This document shows positions 5,077 through 14,741 of a stretch of 40,403 nucleotides of DNA, one piece after another. Source of the DNA: Cyclobacteriaceae bacterium. Lineage in GTDB: Bacteria > Bacteroidota > Bacteroidia > Cytophagales > Cyclobacteriaceae. The translations under genes were made by a program, and so were the position numbers. The notes beneath the pieces were generated by a model. The model was not told where the DNA came from. It searched no databases and saw only the letters and a program-made list of their open reading frames with translations. The DNA is taken from NCBI GenBank assembly GCA_012033595.1, contig JAAUQL010000048.1, forward strand, positions 1 to 40,403, given 5' to 3'. How positions within the stretch are numbered: the first letter of the stretch is position 1; each line of letters starts with the position of its first letter.

Positions 5077-6298
5077 CTACTCCTGAAGCAATCGCAGGTA
5101 ATTGCTGAAATTATCCTGTACCTTCTTGATTTTTGGTGATCGTCGGTCGTATGGCCGCCGCGACATGCGCAGCAGCCTACCGCTGTAGTGTACCTTGCGG
5201 TAGCCCAGTAAATGAAGCAGGGAGATCACCTTGTTCCATTGCCTGTTTTTGTCGATAAGGAACGCATCCCTGGCAAATTTCGCCTTATGGATACCCGGTA
5301 AAATATTAATGGTTTTGTCAAGTTTCCACTTGCGCGTACGCGATGAGAGTTGAAACCAAAAATCTTTGATTTCCTGCACCAAAAAAAATCCATCGCAGCC
5401 CTGATCCTGGTACAAAGGCATAAAGATATGCGCATTGCGGGTGGAAGCGACGGGGCCATGATTATCGTGAGCCAATATTTCCCCTTTGTCCACATGTTGA
5501 AAGTTGACATAACCAGCTTTCATGGCGAAATGGTCTGAGTCACTTACGGGATACCTGTATTTTATTTCAAATATTTTACTGCCCCCGGGGTATGTTTTTG
5601 AGTAAGGTGAAGGGGTCGTTGTTTCCGGGGATACGCTTTTTACTAATACATTTCAGCTTTGCTAACATTGTCCAAATAAATGCCACATGGTTTTCGACGC
5701 TTGACATCGCCTGATGCTGGCCCGCCTCGAACAAAATAGCCGGCAGACCCATTTCGCTAAAGAAACTAAACATCGGGCCGTCAAGCAATTCTTCCAGTCC
5801 AAGGATAAGGTGAACAGGAATGCTTTTGATGATCCGGCGGTTTTTGAGGGTATCGCTGATAGAAATAAATGGCATACTATGCGACGAGGTGGTATGCAGA
5901 TCGAAAATGTAGGTAGGCTGTCCATTGTCCAGGATGGAGACCAACAGCTTGAGGATGTCTATTTTTTCTCTGTATTCGGCGACATAATTTCTTTCTGATG
6001 GCGGAATGATGGAGTTAGGATACCAAATCCTGTTAAGGTCTTTATGGATATACCTCGACCCTCCTTTCAGGGCTTTGATATTGCCTGCGATGGCATACAT
6101 GTTTCCTCTAAAAGACCCGGCGTCTGACTGCAATCGGTCAAGAATATGTTTAAGGGCATAAATTCCGGCAGGTTCGTTGCCGTGAATACCAGCAAAAAAA
6201 ATAAGGTTTGGGCCTGGTTGTCGGCCATGATGCGAACCTATCAAGCGTTCGATATTTTGTATCGGGGGCGTCAAATGGCTATGTGGTAATTTATCCAA
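5077..6298 (-). pseudogene. AstE/aspartoacylase-family zinc deacylase, single frameshift
   Basis: The protein belongs to the M14-like succinylglutamate desuccinylase/aspartoacylase family, zinc hydrolases that remove acyl groups from N-acyl amino acids. The start ATG at 6298 leads to the zinc motif GIHGNEPAG (H39, E42), then HKDLNRIW, the third ligand in FDLHTTSS (H135) and the catalytic glutamate in FEAGQH (E191). The frame stops at 5576 just after a C5G4 tract (plus strand 5582-5590). Removing one base there continues as KIFEIKYRYP and then into MKAGYVNFQHVDKGEILA and the C-terminal domain, ending at 5077. The restored protein has about 406 residues, a full family length. It lies downstream of the glutamate-cysteine-ligase-like gene on the same strand, suggesting a shared gamma-glutamyl or N-acyl amino acid pathway. 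The single homopolymer indel looks like a sequencing error. Confidence 0.82.
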
Positions 6299-6473
6299 CG
6301 GTTATCCTTGTCTTTATCGGCAATTGGAAAATAAATTGCCGGATCATGAAAATGCTTCAACATTGTACTCAATTCAGCAGCAAGATCAAAGTCAGGTTCA
6401 AATTTCATTTCAAGGGCATACGCCTTGCCGCTCGTAAATGTGCAATATGGCAGACGTTCACCTTCATCGTCAT
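6271..6473 (-). CDS. Possible tiny coupled gene between the GCL-like and AstE-like genes
   Basis: On the minus strand the frame reading YCTFTSGKAYALEMKFEP, then DFDLAAELSTMLKHFHD and KDNRWINYHIAI, is open to a TGA at 6271-6273, with protein-like composition. It has no start codon in frame, but one extra base near 6466 would join it to an ATG at 6473 that overlaps the upstream stop as ATGA. That gives 67 residues, and the 3' end overlaps the AstE-like start at 6298. The family is not recognised. The case rests on composition and on the tight overlaps at both ends. Alternatives are a 45-residue product from an internal ATG, or no gene at all. Confidence 0.4.
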
Positions 6474-8374
6474 TTCAAATCGCGCAGCAATTTGGCCGAG
6501 ACTTTTACAAAATGACGGTCTGTGACCATTCCCACAAGTTTTTTATCATCAACCACCAGCAAGCAACTGGTTTTTTTCTCAATCATGGTAGCGACCGAGT
6601 CGGAGATACTTGTTTCCGGAGACACCCATACCGGGTTTTTGTTCATCAAGTCTCTGATCCGGCTGTTTTGCTTTTTTTCTTTGTCGCTTTTGCACAAGAA
6701 ATTAACGAGCAACCCGGCGGTCATGAGGCCCACCAGGTCACCTTTCTCGTTTTCCACTGGGATTTCCCGTACTTGTTTCCAGTCCATAATGTTAGCTACC
6801 AGATCTATGAGGTCATCCTCCTTTACGGTCACTATGTCCGTGGTCATGATCTGGTCAATATGCAGATAGTAGTTGAGAAAGTTACCTGCCTCGTCTATGG
6901 TGGCCAGGTTCCACTGTGCGATGGGTTTCATTTCCTGTTGCCGGTGGTATATTGCCGCTGTGGTAGCCACCAGGGCCTGATCGCGTGTACCCGTCTTGCG
7001 CAGGTTGTTGTATGAGTCTATCATCCATTGCGAGCCGGTTTTTCCCAGGTTTACCCGCTCTTCTACCAGCCCAAGGTAGTGATCAATATCGGGTTTGTCG
7101 ATATGGGCATTTATCAATCCCTGACGAGCCATCGGAAGCAGTATTTGCAGTATTAATTCCTGTGCAGCGTATTTTTTGTCGTCCATCCACATAAATTTGT
7201 TGTCAAGACCGTCGCGGGCTGCTTTCAAAAAATTGGTCTTGGCAGCGTCAAATTCGAACTTATCTGCCAGGTGTCGGTATTCTTTGGGCATAGCAGACAT
7301 CAAGCCAAACCAAAATGCCGCATTGGCCACCTGATCGGGCAGGGTAGGCCCCGAAGCCAAATATCTGTTTTCGATACGCAGATGAGGCTTGCCGTTGAAA
7401 ACCCCATAGCAAGGGCGGTTCCATTTATAAATGGTACTATTGTGTACGAGCAGGGCATCCAGGCTGGGTATTTTTCCTTCTTCCAGCAGCTTCATCGAGT
7501 TGGTCTTTTCATCATTACTCAGCAAGGTGTCGAAGCGGATAATGTCTTCCTTGAATGCATCAGCAATGGAATCGTGGATCCAGCGACTGCCAAATGATAC
7601 CCTCGAACTTTGTTCGCGGAGGTGGTCTTTGGATTGCCGGATATCGATGGACTGCTGAAACAAGGCTATGCGTGTCTCGCGCCACAGCCGCTTGCCAAGC
7701 AACAGCGGCGAATTGGTAGATGCCGCCAAAACAGGTCCGCTGATCATTTGCGCCCAATTATAATGGTCCACGAACTCAGCAGCTGACACCTGAAAATGGA
7801 GTTGGAAGCTGGTATTGCAGCTTTCAAACATCACTGTATCGTGGGTAGTAATCAGTTCGTCGGTGCCACTGATATGAAATTCAAACATGCCATTTCTCAA
7901 CTTGCTCAAGCTATTGGCCAGGGCATGGTATCGCTCCAGCGGGGTCATGTTCGAAATATTGAGGTCTTTGTTGCGGATGGTTGGCAATATGCCGGTCAGC
8001 AATACTTTGGCATTGACATTTTTTAAGGCTGTTTCCACCTTTTTGATGTTTTTGAGCAAATTGGATTGAAGTACCGAAAGACAATTTTTTTCGAAAGGTA
8101 AAGGGTCAAGATTGATTTCAAGATTGAATTTAGCCAGTTCAGTGGTGAAGCGTTCGTCTTTGATTAAGGGCAAAATATCGAGAATAATGGGTGCGGGTCG
8201 CCAATGCTCATCTACCAGGCATAGCTCCTGCTCAGCACCGATACGCACTATCCCGGATTCTATCATGTCGTGCTCGATCATATGCTCCAGGGCTTTGATG
8301 TCGTTGAGCAGATATTTCACGAACCTTTCTTTGTCTTTGCTATTAGAAATGATAGATACAGTTTTAAGACCCAT
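6470..8374 (-). CDS. Glutamate-cysteine ligase-like enzyme fused to a CBS domain pair
   Basis: This 634-residue protein has an N-terminal GCS2/carboxylate-amine ligase-like domain (about residues 40-420) with family blocks GAEQELCLVD, NLEINLDP, HISGTDELIT, CNTSFQLHFQV and RIENRYLASGP. Such enzymes form gamma-glutamyl amide bonds with ATP. The C-terminus carries two CBS motifs (about 505-560, starting IDQIMTTDIVTV, and about 570-630, starting IRDLMNKNPVWVSP). CBS pairs usually bind adenine nucleotides and regulate the attached enzyme. The ATG at 8374 is supported by an open frame with no better downstream start. The gene precedes the AstE-like deacylase on the same strand. The specific substrate is unknown; it need not be cysteine. 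Confidence 0.8.
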   Translation of the reverse strand: MGLKTVSIISNSKDKERFVKYLLNDIKALEHMIEHDMIESGIVRIGAEQELCLVDEHWRPAPIILDILPLIKDERFTTELAKFNLEINLDPLPFEKNCLSVLQSNLLKNIKKVETALKNVNAKVLLTGILPTIRNKDLNISNMTPLERYHALANSLSKLRNGMFEFHISGTDELITTHDTVMFESCNTSFQLHFQVSAAEFVDHYNWAQMISGPVLAASTNSPLLLGKRLWRETRIALFQQSIDIRQSKDHLREQSSRVSFGSRWIHDSIADAFKEDIIRFDTLLSNDEKTNSMKLLEEGKIPSLDALLVHNSTIYKWNRPCYGVFNGKPHLRIENRYLASGPTLPDQVANAAFWFGLMSAMPKEYRHLADKFEFDAAKTNFLKAARDGLDNKFMWMDDKKYAAQELILQILLPMARQGLINAHIDKPDIDHYLGLVEERVNLGKTGSQWMIDSYNNLRKTGTRDQALVATTAAIYHRQQEMKPIAQWNLATIDEAGNFLNYYLHIDQIMTTDIVTVKEDDLIDLVANIMDWKQVREIPVENEKGDLVGLMTAGLLVNFLCKSDKEKKQNSRIRDLMNKNPVWVSPETSISDSVATMIEKKTSCLLVVDDKKLVGMVTDRHFVKVSAKLLRDLK

Positions 8375-10534: not shown

Positions 10535-10536
10535 TT

Positions 10537-10694
10537 ATCGGTCAATTAGCCGATATTACCAATTATCGGTCAATTGGCCGATATTTTTAATTATCGGCTT
10601 TTTGGGTGATATTTACGATTATCGGTTAATTAGCCGATATTTTGAATTATCGGCTTTTTAGGTGATATTTGCGATTATCGGTCGATTGGCCGAT
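10537..10694 (+). repeat. Six palindromic operator-like repeats at exact 28-bp spacing upstream of satD
   Basis: Six 18-bp units start at 10537, 10565, 10593, 10621, 10649 and 10677, each exactly 28 bp from the last. Units 1, 2, 4 and 6 are near-perfect palindromes of the form ATCGGnnAATTnnCCGAT (for example ATCGGTCAATTAGCCGAT; unit 6 has GATT at the centre). Units 3 and 5 share a different, asymmetric version (ATCGGCTTTTTGGGTGAT and ATCGGCTTTTTAGGTGAT). The 10-bp linkers are AT-rich (ATTTnnnATT). The last unit ends 17 bp before the satD ATG, abutting a -7-like box. The arrangement implies cooperative binding of a dimeric regulator, plausibly SatD itself. That assignment is inference. Confidence 0.9.
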
Positions 10695-10697
10695 ATT

Positions 10698-10705
10698 TAA
10701 ATTTG
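10698..10705 (+). promoter_or_regulatory. Candidate -7 box of the satD promoter
   Basis: TAAATTTG matches the Bacteroidota -7 consensus TAnnTTTG and ends 6 bp before the ATG at 10712, so the transcript would be leaderless or nearly so. The -33 region would fall inside the sixth palindrome, so a bound regulator would compete with or recruit RNA polymerase. No clear -33 TTG is present at the usual spacing. Confidence 0.45.
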
Positions 10706-10711
10706 TGTAAA

Positions 10712-11314
10712 ATGAAAACAAGCGTGCTCACCGGCGACCTCATCAATTCCCGCTCGATACCGGGCAAAGAATGGATGCCCTTGTTCAAAGAAGCCTTGAA
10801 TAGATACGGCAGCGAACCCGCTCAGTGGGAAATCTTTCGGGGAGATAGTTTTCAGTTGGAATTGTCGCCTGAAAAGGCCGTAATGGCGGTGCTGCACATC
10901 AAAGCCACCATCAAGCAACTGAAGTCGCTCGACGTACGCATAGGCATAGGAATAGGGGAAAAAAACTATAAAGCCAATAAAGTCACCCAATGCAATGGAA
11001 GTGCTTTTGTCCATTCGGGCGAAGCATTCGAATCGCTCAAACGGAAGATATTGTCACTGAAATCAGACTGGCCGGAATTTGACGTGGAGATAAACCAATA
11101 CCTTGATCTGGCCTCTCTGGTGATGAACAATTGGCCGGCCACTTCGGCCATCATCTTTAAGGCAGCACTGGAGCATCCCGGGCTCAACCAGGCGCAATTG
11201 GCCGAAAAACTGGGAAAAAGCCAAAGCTCTATCAGCGAGAGCCTGTCCAGGACGGGCTTTGAGGAAATAATGAACATGGAAAAAAGATACCGAGAACTAC
11301 TCCAAAAGCAATGA
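10712..11314 (+). CDS. satD: SatD-family protein with C-terminal helix-turn-helix
   Basis: This is a 200-residue SatD-like protein. The N-terminal part starts MKTSVLTGDLINSRSI, the family signature, followed by EIFRGDSFQLEL and VRIGIGIGE, a layout resembling a degenerate nucleotide-cyclase-like fold. The C-terminus carries a helix-turn-helix (AQLAEKLGKSQSSISESLSR, about residues 154-175). The ATG at 10712 is chosen because the family motif starts there; a TTG at 10703 is in frame but lies within the -7 box. The stop overlaps the next start by 4 bp (ATGA), implying translational coupling with the DUF3307 membrane protein. The upstream palindrome array makes autoregulation likely. The cellular role of SatD proteins is poorly known. 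Confidence 0.85.
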   Translation: MKTSVLTGDLINSRSIPGKEWMPLFKEALNRYGSEPAQWEIFRGDSFQLELSPEKAVMAVLHIKATIKQLKSLDVRIGIGIGEKNYKANKVTQCNGSAFVHSGEAFESLKRKILSLKSDWPEFDVEINQYLDLASLVMNNWPATSAIIFKAALEHPGLNQAQLAEKLGKSQSSISESLSRTGFEEIMNMEKRYRELLQKQ

Positions 11315-12033
11315 CCCTACTGATACTTCAACTACTCCTGGCGCATATCCTTGGTGATTTCCTCTTTCAGCCTGCCCGATGGGTAGCGCAAAAGCAGGCA
11401 GGGATGCACCGATCCAAATACCTGTACTGGCATATTGGCGTTCACGCCCTCACACTGTTGCTGGCCTTGCGGTTTGACCTGCAATACTGGGCAGGCATCC
11501 TGTTTATTTTGATATCGCACTACCTCATAGACCTGATCAGACTAAAACTGACAGGAAGGGTGGGGGACAGGTTGTTGTTCTTTGCCGACCAGGCATTGCA
11601 CCTGCTGGCCATCACCCTGGTGGTCTATTGGTACGAGCCGTTTCAGCCCGACTTTTCCATGATGTATTCCGGCAAGGTACTGTTGCTGCTCATCTCCGTT
11701 TTGCTCCTCACACAGGTAGCGTCTGTGGTGATGAAAACGCTCGTTACCAAGTGGGATTTTGTGGAAGATGAAGCCGGCAATTCGCTCGATAAAGCCGGCA
11801 AATACATCGGCATGCTGGAGCGCTTATTTGTCTTCGGCTTCATCGTGTTTCAGCAGTGGCAGGCCATTGGCTTTTTGCTCGCTGCTAAGTCGGTATTCCG
11901 CTTTGGCGACCTTACCAAGGCCAAAGACCGCAAGCTCACCGAGTACATCCTCATTGGCACCTTGCTAAGCTTTGGAATGGCCATCATCATCGGTTTGGGG
12001 TATGTACATTTTGTCGGAAAGATAGCCGGGTAG
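11311..12033 (+). CDS. DUF3307-family membrane protein
   Basis: This is a 240-residue multi-pass inner-membrane protein with about six hydrophobic segments. The start (MTLLILQLLLAHILGDFLFQ, then PARWVAQKQA) is the typical DUF3307 opening, with HILGDF and the later HIGVHALTLLL and ISHYLIDLIRLKL conserved. The RFGDLTKAKDRKLTEYILIG block near the C-terminus is also usual in this family. It overlaps the satD stop by 4 bp and so forms a two-gene operon with that regulator, a pairing that recurs in Bacteroidota. The transported or sensed ligand is unknown. Confidence 0.85.
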   Translation: MTLLILQLLLAHILGDFLFQPARWVAQKQAGMHRSKYLYWHIGVHALTLLLALRFDLQYWAGILFILISHYLIDLIRLKLTGRVGDRLLFFADQALHLLAITLVVYWYEPFQPDFSMMYSGKVLLLLISVLLLTQVASVVMKTLVTKWDFVEDEAGNSLDKAGKYIGMLERLFVFGFIVFQQWQAIGFLLAAKSVFRFGDLTKAKDRKLTEYILIGTLLSFGMAIIIGLGYVHFVGKIAG

Positions 12034-12500: not shown

Positions 12501-14741
12501 ATGAACCAACATAGAAAACTCTGGGTCGCCTTCATACTGGTGGTCAGCATCTCCTTTGCCGTGTTAGGGTACTACGGCTACGAGATATACCAACAAGCGC
12601 CTCCGATACCGGTACAAGTATCCACTCCCGATGGCCAGGTTTTGTTTACCGGGCAAGATATCAAAGACGGACAAAATGTATGGCAAAGCATGGGAGGACA
12701 AGAAGTAGGCACTGTTTGGGGTCATGGCGCTTATGTGGCTCCGGACTGGACGGCAGACTGGCTGCACCGCGAGGCTACCTTTATCCTCGACCAATATGCC
12801 CAAAAGGATTTTGGCAAGCCATTCGACCAGCTCGACAAAGAAAACAAGGCGGCACTGGAGCAGCGCCTGCAAAGTGAGTTGAGAAACAATACCTACGACC
12901 CACAGTCGCAGGTGCTTACCATTTCGCCTATGCGAAAGCAAGCCTATCTGTTTCTCAAAGATTACTATACCTCACTTTTTACCGATGATCCGGCACTTGA
13001 CCAACTGAGGTCGTACTATGCCATTCCAAAAAATGCCATAAAAGACAAGGAGCGTATGGATCAAATGGCTCAGTTTTTCTTCTGGGCATCGTGGGCTTGT
13101 GTCACAGAGCGACCGGGGGAGCGCATTACCTACACCCACAACTGGCCTTCTGATCCACAGATCGGCAACAACCCTACCGGGTCATTGATGTTGTGGACAG
13201 GTTTTAGTGTCATCATGTTGTTGGTCGGCATCGGTATTTTGGTTTTCTACCACGCCAAAAATAGCGAAGAAGAGCCTCAGGCACCAAAGGAGGATCCTTT
13301 GATGCGACAAAATATCACCCCTTCGATGAAGGCGGTAGAAAAGTACTTCTGGGTGGTGAATCTATTGCTGCTGCTTCAGGTGGTATTTGGTGTGGTCACC
13401 GCACACTATGGGGTAGAAGGGGATGGTTTCTATGGTTTTCCCCTGGCCGATGTACTGCCCTATGCAGTCTCCCGAACCTGGCATGTACAGTTGGCCATAC
13501 TATGGATCGCGACCGCATGGCTGGCCACCGGTTTGTATATTGGCCCATCTTTATTGGGCAAAGATCCAAAATTCCAGAAAATCGGAGTCAACTTTTTGTT
13601 TGTGGCGTTGCTCATTATTGTGGTGGGTTCTATGGCCGGCCAATGGATGGGGGTGATGCAAAAACTGGGGCTGGTCGAAAACTTCTGGTTTGGTCATCAG
13701 GGCTATGAATATGTGGATTTGGGACGGTTTTGGCAAATATTCCTTTTCGTCGGTTTGTTGATCTGGCTTACCCTCATGGCGAGACCCATTTTGCCTGTAC
13801 TTCGGCAAAGGACTGAGGAGCGACATTTATTGATACTATTTCTGATTTCCTGTACTGCTATTGCCTTGTTTTACGCTGCCGGACTGATGTGGGGCAGGCA
13901 AACCAATCTGGCCATCGCGGAGTATTGGCGCTGGTGGGTCGTACACCTGTGGGTGGAGGGGTTTTTCGAAGTATTTGCCACAGTGGTTGCCGCTTTTCTT
14001 TTTACCAGAATGGGGCTGCTTCGCACCAATACAGCCACCTCCAGTGTGATATTTGCGACTGTTATATTTCTTTCAGGCGGTATTTTGGGCACTTTTCACC
14101 ATTTGTATTTTTCCGGTACACCTACTGCCGTCATGGCGCTCGGTGCCACTTTTAGCGCGCTGGAAGTGGTTCCCCTGGTGATCATTGGTTTTGAGGCCTT
14201 TCACAACTATCGCCTCAGCAAGGCTACCGAATGGCTCAAAGACTATAAATGGCCCATTTACTGCCTGCTGTCAGTTTCATTCTGGAACTTTCTCGGTGCG
14301 GGTATATTTGGATTTTTAATCAACCCGCCCATCGCCTTATACTACATGCAAGGTCTCAACACTACCGCTGTGCATGGCCACACGGCCTTGTTTGGTGTGT
14401 ATGGAATGCTGGGTATTGGACTGATGCTATTTGTATTGAGAAATATGTATAGGAATGTGAAGTGGAACGATAAGTTGCTTGCGTTTTCTTTTTGGTCTAT
14501 CAATGGCGGACTTGTGCTCATGGTGGTGCTCAGCTTGTTACCGGTCGGATTTTTACAAACTGTGGCCAGCGTGAATGTGGGCATGTGGTATGCCCGTTCT
14601 GCAGAATTGATGCAGTTGCCCCACATGCACACATTCAAATGGCTGAGGGTGGTTGGTGACACCGTTTTTGCTATAGGAACAGTAACCTTATGTTGGTTTG
14701 TTTTCAGTCTTATCAAAACCAAAAAAATGATGCGTGAATAG
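12501..14741 (+). CDS. norZ: Quinol-dependent nitric oxide reductase (qNOR)
   Basis: This 746-residue inner-membrane enzyme reduces NO to N2O with electrons from quinol. The N-terminal transmembrane helix is followed by a periplasmic cytochrome-c-like domain without haem motif (GQDIKDGQNVWQSMGGQEVG), as in single-subunit qNOR. The catalytic core follows. Candidate haem ligands are H328 in SRTWHVQLAILW and H625/H627 in AVHGHTALFGVYG; non-haem iron ligands H482 (HLWVEGFFEVFA, with E486 and E490) and H533/H534 (GTFHHLYFSG). The length is normal and no residue is obviously missing. No other denitrification gene is nearby, so NO detoxification or the NO step of partial denitrification are both possible. 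A terminator follows directly. Confidence 0.95.
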   Translation: MNQHRKLWVAFILVVSISFAVLGYYGYEIYQQAPPIPVQVSTPDGQVLFTGQDIKDGQNVWQSMGGQEVGTVWGHGAYVAPDWTADWLHREATFILDQYAQKDFGKPFDQLDKENKAALEQRLQSELRNNTYDPQSQVLTISPMRKQAYLFLKDYYTSLFTDDPALDQLRSYYAIPKNAIKDKERMDQMAQFFFWASWACVTERPGERITYTHNWPSDPQIGNNPTGSLMLWTGFSVIMLLVGIGILVFYHAKNSEEEPQAPKEDPLMRQNITPSMKAVEKYFWVVNLLLLLQVVFGVVTAHYGVEGDGFYGFPLADVLPYAVSRTWHVQLAILWIATAWLATGLYIGPSLLGKDPKFQKIGVNFLFVALLIIVVGSMAGQWMGVMQKLGLVENFWFGHQGYEYVDLGRFWQIFLFVGLLIWLTLMARPILPVLRQRTEERHLLILFLISCTAIALFYAAGLMWGRQTNLAIAEYWRWWVVHLWVEGFFEVFATVVAAFLFTRMGLLRTNTATSSVIFATVIFLSGGILGTFHHLYFSGTPTAVMALGATFSALEVVPLVIIGFEAFHNYRLSKATEWLKDYKWPIYCLLSVSFWNFLGAGIFGFLINPPIALYYMQGLNTTAVHGHTALFGVYGMLGIGLMLFVLRNMYRNVKWNDKLLAFSFWSINGGLVLMVVLSLLPVGFLQTVASVNVGMWYARSAELMQLPHMHTFKWLRVVGDTVFAIGTVTLCWFVFSLIKTKKMMRE

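Follow-up and report, generated by a model that had tools for sequence, protein, structure and literature searches.

A 28-29 bp operator array upstream of satD-DUF3307 and its probable reading by the SatD recognition helix

In a 40,403-nucleotide stretch of DNA from a Cyclobacteriaceae bacterium (JAAUQL010000048.1; the whole stretch is referred to below as the window), the satD gene and the DUF3307 gene are directly preceded by six 20-bp units of the form TATC-N12-GATA, repeated at an exact 28-bp period with 8-bp linkers (10536-10695). As judged from the comparison of a large set of satD loci, SatD is very probably the protein that binds this array and the autoregulator of the satD-DUF3307 operon. 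SatD is proposed as the binder because the letters of the sites co-vary with its recognition helix, a relationship that survives a test against shared ancestry. The SatD family (PF16264) owes its name to satD of the sat operon of Streptococcus mutans. For SatD elsewhere, the one study found to name the family mentions only a “role in acid resistance” (PMC10326533). No SatD operator, DNA binding or palm fold was found among the papers listed, which lay mostly outside subscription journals.

Results

The array in the window

The coordinates of the features are collected in Table 1. The first-pass annotation of this DNA had described six units of 18 bp starting at 10535; their number and exact period were recovered, whereas the unit is 20 bp long and starts at 10536. 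The same annotation had separated palindromic units (1, 2, 4 and 6) from a distinct asymmetric variant (3 and 5), and this separation was also recovered. Indeed, the former are near-perfect palindromes with 8, 9, 9 and 8 complementary pairs out of 10, respectively, as compared with 5 and 6 for units 3 and 5. These two units share 19/20 positions with each other and 13-15/20 with the remaining units, and the linkers alternate in the same pattern. Because a 56-bp period with 90% matches is also reported by TRF, and because units and linkers alternate together, the simplest source of the alternation is probably the local duplication of a two-unit, 56-bp block. Such a duplication would explain the window without the two interleaved site classes that had been proposed, and units with unequal arms are in any case widespread (314/564 units, in 147 of the 172 loci of the comparative set described below).

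In a scan scoring palindromes and repetition together, the array region reached 26.0, as compared with 24.5 for the highest of 500 shuffles; when the same scan covered the 403 tiles of the window, the best tile off the array scored 20.25. Across the 5.75-Mb genome, the pattern TATCGG-N8-CCGATA occurs exactly four times, all inside the array, and with one mismatch allowed it matches 27 places vs 26 for the reversed control pattern. The search for further copies confined the exact site to the satD promoter. A scattered genome-wide repeat was ruled out, the exact site being present at one place only.

Table 1. Position of the array units, promoter element, genes and protein regions in the window, and of the arrays on gammaproteobacterial plasmids
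Feature	Position	Strand	Remarks
Operator unit 1	10536..10555	.	TATCGGTCAATTAGCCGATA
Operator unit 2	10564..10583	.	TATCGGTCAATTGGCCGATA
Operator unit 3	10592..10611	.	TATCGGCTTTTTGGGTGATA; asymmetric
Operator unit 4	10620..10639	.	TATCGGTTAATTAGCCGATA
Operator unit 5	10648..10667	.	Asymmetric, near-copy of unit 3
Operator unit 6	10676..10695	.	Promoter-proximal (predicted promoter position)
-7 box	10698-10705	+	TAAATTTG; matches Bacteroidota TAnnTTTG; two bases past unit 6
satD (PF16264), 200 aa	10712..11314	+	E 2.9e-9, 37.3 bits, cut-off 29
SatD palm domain, residues 1-117	10712..11062	+	Limits from secondary structure; D9 and D45 near-invariant
SatD HTH recognition helix, residues 171-180	11222..11251	+	Co-variation with operator letters at 176, 173, 172 and 180
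DUF3307 membrane protein	11311..12033	+	ATGA overlap with satD
Gammaproteobacterial plasmid arrays, 28-29 bp	L268:1371-1444; L269:1347-1394; L270:1430-1475		DUF3307 annotated adjacent in L268 and L269

Promoter and operon organization

The -7 box that had been noticed before satD does match the TAnnTTTG motif. According to a flavobacterial study, this box lies at -12 to -5 (PMC9723704), and applying that rule to TAAATTTG leads to a predicted transcription start at about 10710. The satD mRNA would accordingly be nearly leaderless, and unit 6 would span the predicted promoter from about -34 to about -15. Leaderless mRNAs are a minority of 5.5% in the flavobacterial study (PMC9723704), and about 3.7% of the 5' UTRs of Bacteroides are shorter than 10 nt (PMC7366714). 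The gap between unit 6 and the start of satD is 16 bases.

The array very probably serves the satD-DUF3307 operon as its operator. A filled array should block transcription, promoter occlusion by SatD (autorepression) being the simplest outcome. Repression is the likely direction of control, because unit 6 covers the predicted promoter region given above, with its end two bases short of the -7 box. Among the 172 array loci compared, only 74 have an exact TAnnTTTG box near the start. In 35 of these 74, site and box overlap, the box beginning 2 to 6 bp before the last unit ends, and in 23 the box starts 20-29 bp past the last unit. In the latter arrangement the array would end near -33, so that activation would also be possible: SatD would bind the array but activate the promoter, or activate and repress it depending on a ligand. 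Such a role is rather unlikely; the 23 loci in which the array would immediately precede the -33 region speak for it, but the overlap in the 35 loci and the position of unit 6 in the window, two bases away from the box, argue for repression instead.

Of the 181 loci whose downstream sequence reaches 700 bp or more, 178 have a DUF3307-like ORF 3' of satD in the same orientation (the exceptions being L044, L049 and L050), and the median gap between the two genes is -4. The DUF3307 protein is predicted to be all-helical, and its invariant residues D16, H41, H70, D74, D93 and H97 (37 sequences) are all located in predicted helices. These histidines and aspartates may perhaps form a membrane-embedded metal site. 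A fold search with DUF3307 gave no match (best E 0.93), and PADLOC returned zero matches for it. As for other genes of the window, satD-DUF3307 is followed on the same strand by a gene for a nitric oxide reductase (NorB cytochrome c-like and COX1 domains, 12501-14741), and the minus strand encodes, at 5576-8374, a protein of 634 aa that has two matches to CBS domains and adjoins an AstE/AspA-like hydrolase.

Recurrence and spacing of the array across satD loci

A total of 250 satD loci (L002-L251) were gathered, from 60/61, 49/52 and 61/86 of the matches in the sets used and from the best 80 of 594 relatives. The 61 were hand-picked for spread, many of the unused members of that set coming from genomes or genera already represented; the 80 were found with one peptide pattern, so that the sample leans to Flavobacteriaceae. 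Removal of duplicates (L052, L053, L065, L084, L133, L144 and L244) left 243 distinct loci, of which 242 were scored, L051 being excluded for its short upstream stretch, where a TATAGG array is visible by eye. A family-model search gave 78/395, which is a lower bound, since the model missed the window's own genome.

Chains of TAT-N14-ATA units at 27-29 bp (a 28-bp step, with 27 and 29 bp allowed at a penalty) were detected in 174/242 upstream regions, as compared with 3/2,420 shuffles. Adjacent strong units were separated by 28 bp 171 times, by 29 bp 29 times and by 56 bp 12 times (141 loci), the arrays contained from 2 to 8 units, and they were mostly located within 60 bases of the satD start codon. 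An open scan assumed neither letters nor period (periods of 18-60 bp, a pass being a score above the 99th percentile of shuffles). It was passed by 134 of the 172 TAT-type loci, with a period of 28 bp in 90, 56 bp in 26, 29 bp in 13 and others in five, and failed by 38. Of the remaining 70 loci, 31 passed, at 29 bp (21), 28 bp (7), 56 bp (2) or 58 bp (1). Two of these 31, L167 and L197, were already counted among the 174; hence 29 of the 68 upstream regions without a TAT-type chain pass the open scan, at 28, 29, 56 or 58 bp only. The units of these non-TAT arrays, which belong to more distant SatDs, differ strongly, e.g., AACCAnnnTGGTT, GAAACAAT..ATTGTTTC or AGAACC..GGTTCT. Taken together (174 + 29), an array was found by one test or the other in 203/242 regions, so that most of the satD upstream regions examined do carry one.

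On sequence grounds, the conserved feature is the 28-29 bp step more than the letters of the site. The first-pass annotation had supposed that every third site returns to the same face of the DNA (84 bp, about eight turns); this is not general, as the 29-bp spacing is also frequent. Neither test was passed by 39/242 regions. These include L178, which was scored from a wrong anchor base and shows an array on re-reading, and several regions in which a pair 28-29 bp apart is visible and the threshold is narrowly missed. In others (e.g., L049, L050, L141, L157, L173, L198, L199, L202, L222, L231, L235 and L239), none or one unit was seen by eye. Array length also varies: upstream of satD, L145, with seven TATC-N12-GATA units, and L204, with a long row of near-identical units, have longer arrays than the window, which suggests that slippage or duplication alters the number of copies.

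Arrays also precede satD homologues on plasmids of Gammaproteobacteria, at 28 bp in Vibrio lentus and in two near-identical Pseudoalteromonas records and at 29 bp in Enterobacter kobei, with 0/300 shuffles scoring as well for each of the Vibrio, Enterobacter and Pseudoalteromonas arrays. On the V. lentus and E. kobei plasmids, an annotated DUF3307 gene is located beside the SatD homologue. In Segatella (L267), one clear unit is accompanied by a degenerate second one, and 2/300 shuffles score as high. No phage SatD homologue was found at E 0.001.

Five copies of satD homologues are carried by plasmids and, together with the tandem sites, the membrane-protein partner and a weak similarity of the SatD HTH to ParB/Noc, they would fit an array serving chiefly for DNA anchoring or in a partition-like role, SatD being supposed to spread along it and to tie the DNA to the membrane via DUF3307. 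However, this role is very improbable, since the arrays lie at satD's own promoter, at the short distance from the start codon noted above, and since, in contrast with ParB/Noc, the exact sites are confined to one promoter, with none elsewhere in the window's genome. Moreover, the ParB/Noc match involves the HTH portion only and is far below the family cut-off (14.9 bits for TIGR00180, cut-off 58.45), which does not make SatD a member of that family.

Co-variation of the operator letters with SatD

A half-site consensus was derived for each locus from all units and both arms, in a set of 172 loci that had been selected for TAT-type arrays and from which L167 and L197 were excluded for their short proteins. 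The commonest half-sites were TATCGG (41), TATCGT (35), TATTAG (22) and TATCTG (15). Mutual information was computed between operator positions 4-7 and the SatD columns, after down-weighting similar sequences and regressing out entropy. The highest value was obtained for residue 176 (z 6.7), followed by 173 (z 2.7), 185, 33, 172 and 180; residues 185 and 33, ranked third and fourth, lie off the recognition helix. This is illustrated by a glutamate at 176, which goes with C at operator position 4 in 75/78 loci, a glutamine with T or A at this position in 38/38 and a glycine with T at position 6 in 22/23. Likewise, a threonine at 173 goes with G at operator position 5 in 34/35 loci, and an alanine with A in 20/23.

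Shared ancestry alone yields some correlation in many SatD columns. As a control, a tree was built from SatD residues 1-140, and a count was made of the branches on which a column changes together with the operator core. With 62 inferred operator-core changes on the tree of the 172 loci, the observed vs expected co-changes were 25 vs 10.8 for residue 176, 27 vs 12.2 for 173, 11 vs 5.2 for 180 and 15 vs 9.4 for 172. These are the top four of 180 columns, and all four are located in the recognition helix. When the SatD columns were ranked jointly with 233 columns of DUF3307, used as a co-inherited control (137 loci), residues 176 (z 8.1) and 173 (z 4.1) again led, followed by 185; the best DUF3307 column had a z of 1.9, residue 172 was tenth and 180 was absent from the top 14. 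When loci with 40-60% identity outside the HTH were compared in pairs, residues 173 and 176 were both equal in 1-10% of the cases when the operators differ, as compared with 27-55% when they are the same, and above 70% identity same- and different-operator pairs were not separated.

Correlation through common ancestry is also what would be expected if an unlinked regulator read the array and SatD merely followed phylogenetically. Such a regulator is highly improbable, given that the strongest correlations are located in the recognition helix rather than elsewhere in SatD or in DUF3307, and that they survive the tree test. Palindromic units in tandem could also stem from a selfish or structural repeat, or form hairpins in a leader RNA, but the array is present at a single genomic location and would be left untranscribed by the predicted start at 10710, and its arms change along with the recognition helix. 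Both of these readings are scarcely credible.

Predicted fold of SatD

The SatD protein of the window, encoded beside DUF3307, is a member of its family above the Pfam cut-off, and the HTH announced by the first-pass annotation is found at about residues 150-180. Solved relatives searched by sequence gave only weak matches in the HTH region (best E 0.5), as did PADLOC (best E 0.0012). The AlphaFold2 model of SatD had a pLDDT of 96.2, and its best Foldseek matches were Csm1/Cas10 (E 2.8e-4), the adenylyl cyclase Ma1120 (E 4.2e-4) and the GGDEF protein DgcB (E 8.9e-4), GTP cyclohydrolase III being also matched (E 3e-3). Ten matches had E <= 0.001, with a probability of 1.0 and a modest TM of about 0.4 by query and about 0.5 by target (cyclases). 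According to this model, SatD is a palm domain of the class III cyclase/GGDEF/Cas10 type followed by a C-terminal HTH, the limits of the palm (1-117) being set from the succession of secondary-structure elements and from an aligned length of about 120.

Two aspartates of the palm are kept in nearly all proteins, D9 in 236/240 and D45 in 235/240. In the predicted model, D9 closes strand 1 and D45 lies in the turn between strands 2 and 3, which we take to be the places of the metal-binding aspartates in the cyclase, GGDEF and Cas10 families. The predicted fold, which resembles class III cyclase, GGDEF and Cas10 palms, and these two aspartates suggest nucleotide binding by SatD. By eye, neither the transition-state Asn/Arg pair of cyclases nor the GGDEF catalytic set is evident in the SatD sequence. 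SatD differs from these palms in being small, fused to an HTH and linked to an operator. The palm domain may sense or process a nucleotide that sets the grip of SatD on DNA; the chances that SatD is under nucleotide control are about even.

Discussion

In the mechanism that we propose, each 20-bp unit would be read by two SatD HTHs, one per half-site. The half-site cores are 11 bp apart, i.e., about one helical turn, and a half-site spacing of one turn is usual for an ordinary HTH dimer. Neighbouring SatD dimers would be 28-29 bp apart and probably touch each other, so that the array would fill cooperatively. Cooperative autoregulation by SatD had been put forward in the first-pass annotation; its autoregulatory part is backed by the co-variation, the confinement of the sites and the recurrence of the array, whereas its cooperative part is drawn from the conserved geometry only. 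We infer cooperative filling from the conserved spacing, considered together with the co-variation.

The phage lambda CI repressor, acting at OR, is an autoregulator with tandem palindromic operators. SatD resembles it as an HTH protein associated with several spaced palindromes at its own promoter, which is here a predicted one. However, satD arrays range from 2 to 8 units and keep their 28-29 bp step while the letters drift, and SatD has a palm domain where the repressor has its own sensor.

The nucleotide-set grip of SatD would in turn switch the membrane protein DUF3307. As a whole, we tentatively picture SatD as a regulator that is gated by a nucleotide and polymerises on the promoter of its own gene, the palm binding or making a nucleotide that sets the contacts between neighbours at the fixed 28-29 bp step and thereby switches a DUF3307 effector; the step would be conserved and the letters would be free to follow changes of the recognition helix, both in Bacteroidota and on gammaproteobacterial plasmids. 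This complete scheme is possible rather than probable. It would give the poorly characterised SatD family a specific and testable job, with a cognate site in most of the genomes examined and a predicted nucleotide-binding fold. Besides, the satD loci may offer a natural experiment in protein-DNA recognition, in which changes of the operator core are matched to a few residues while the spacing hardly changes.
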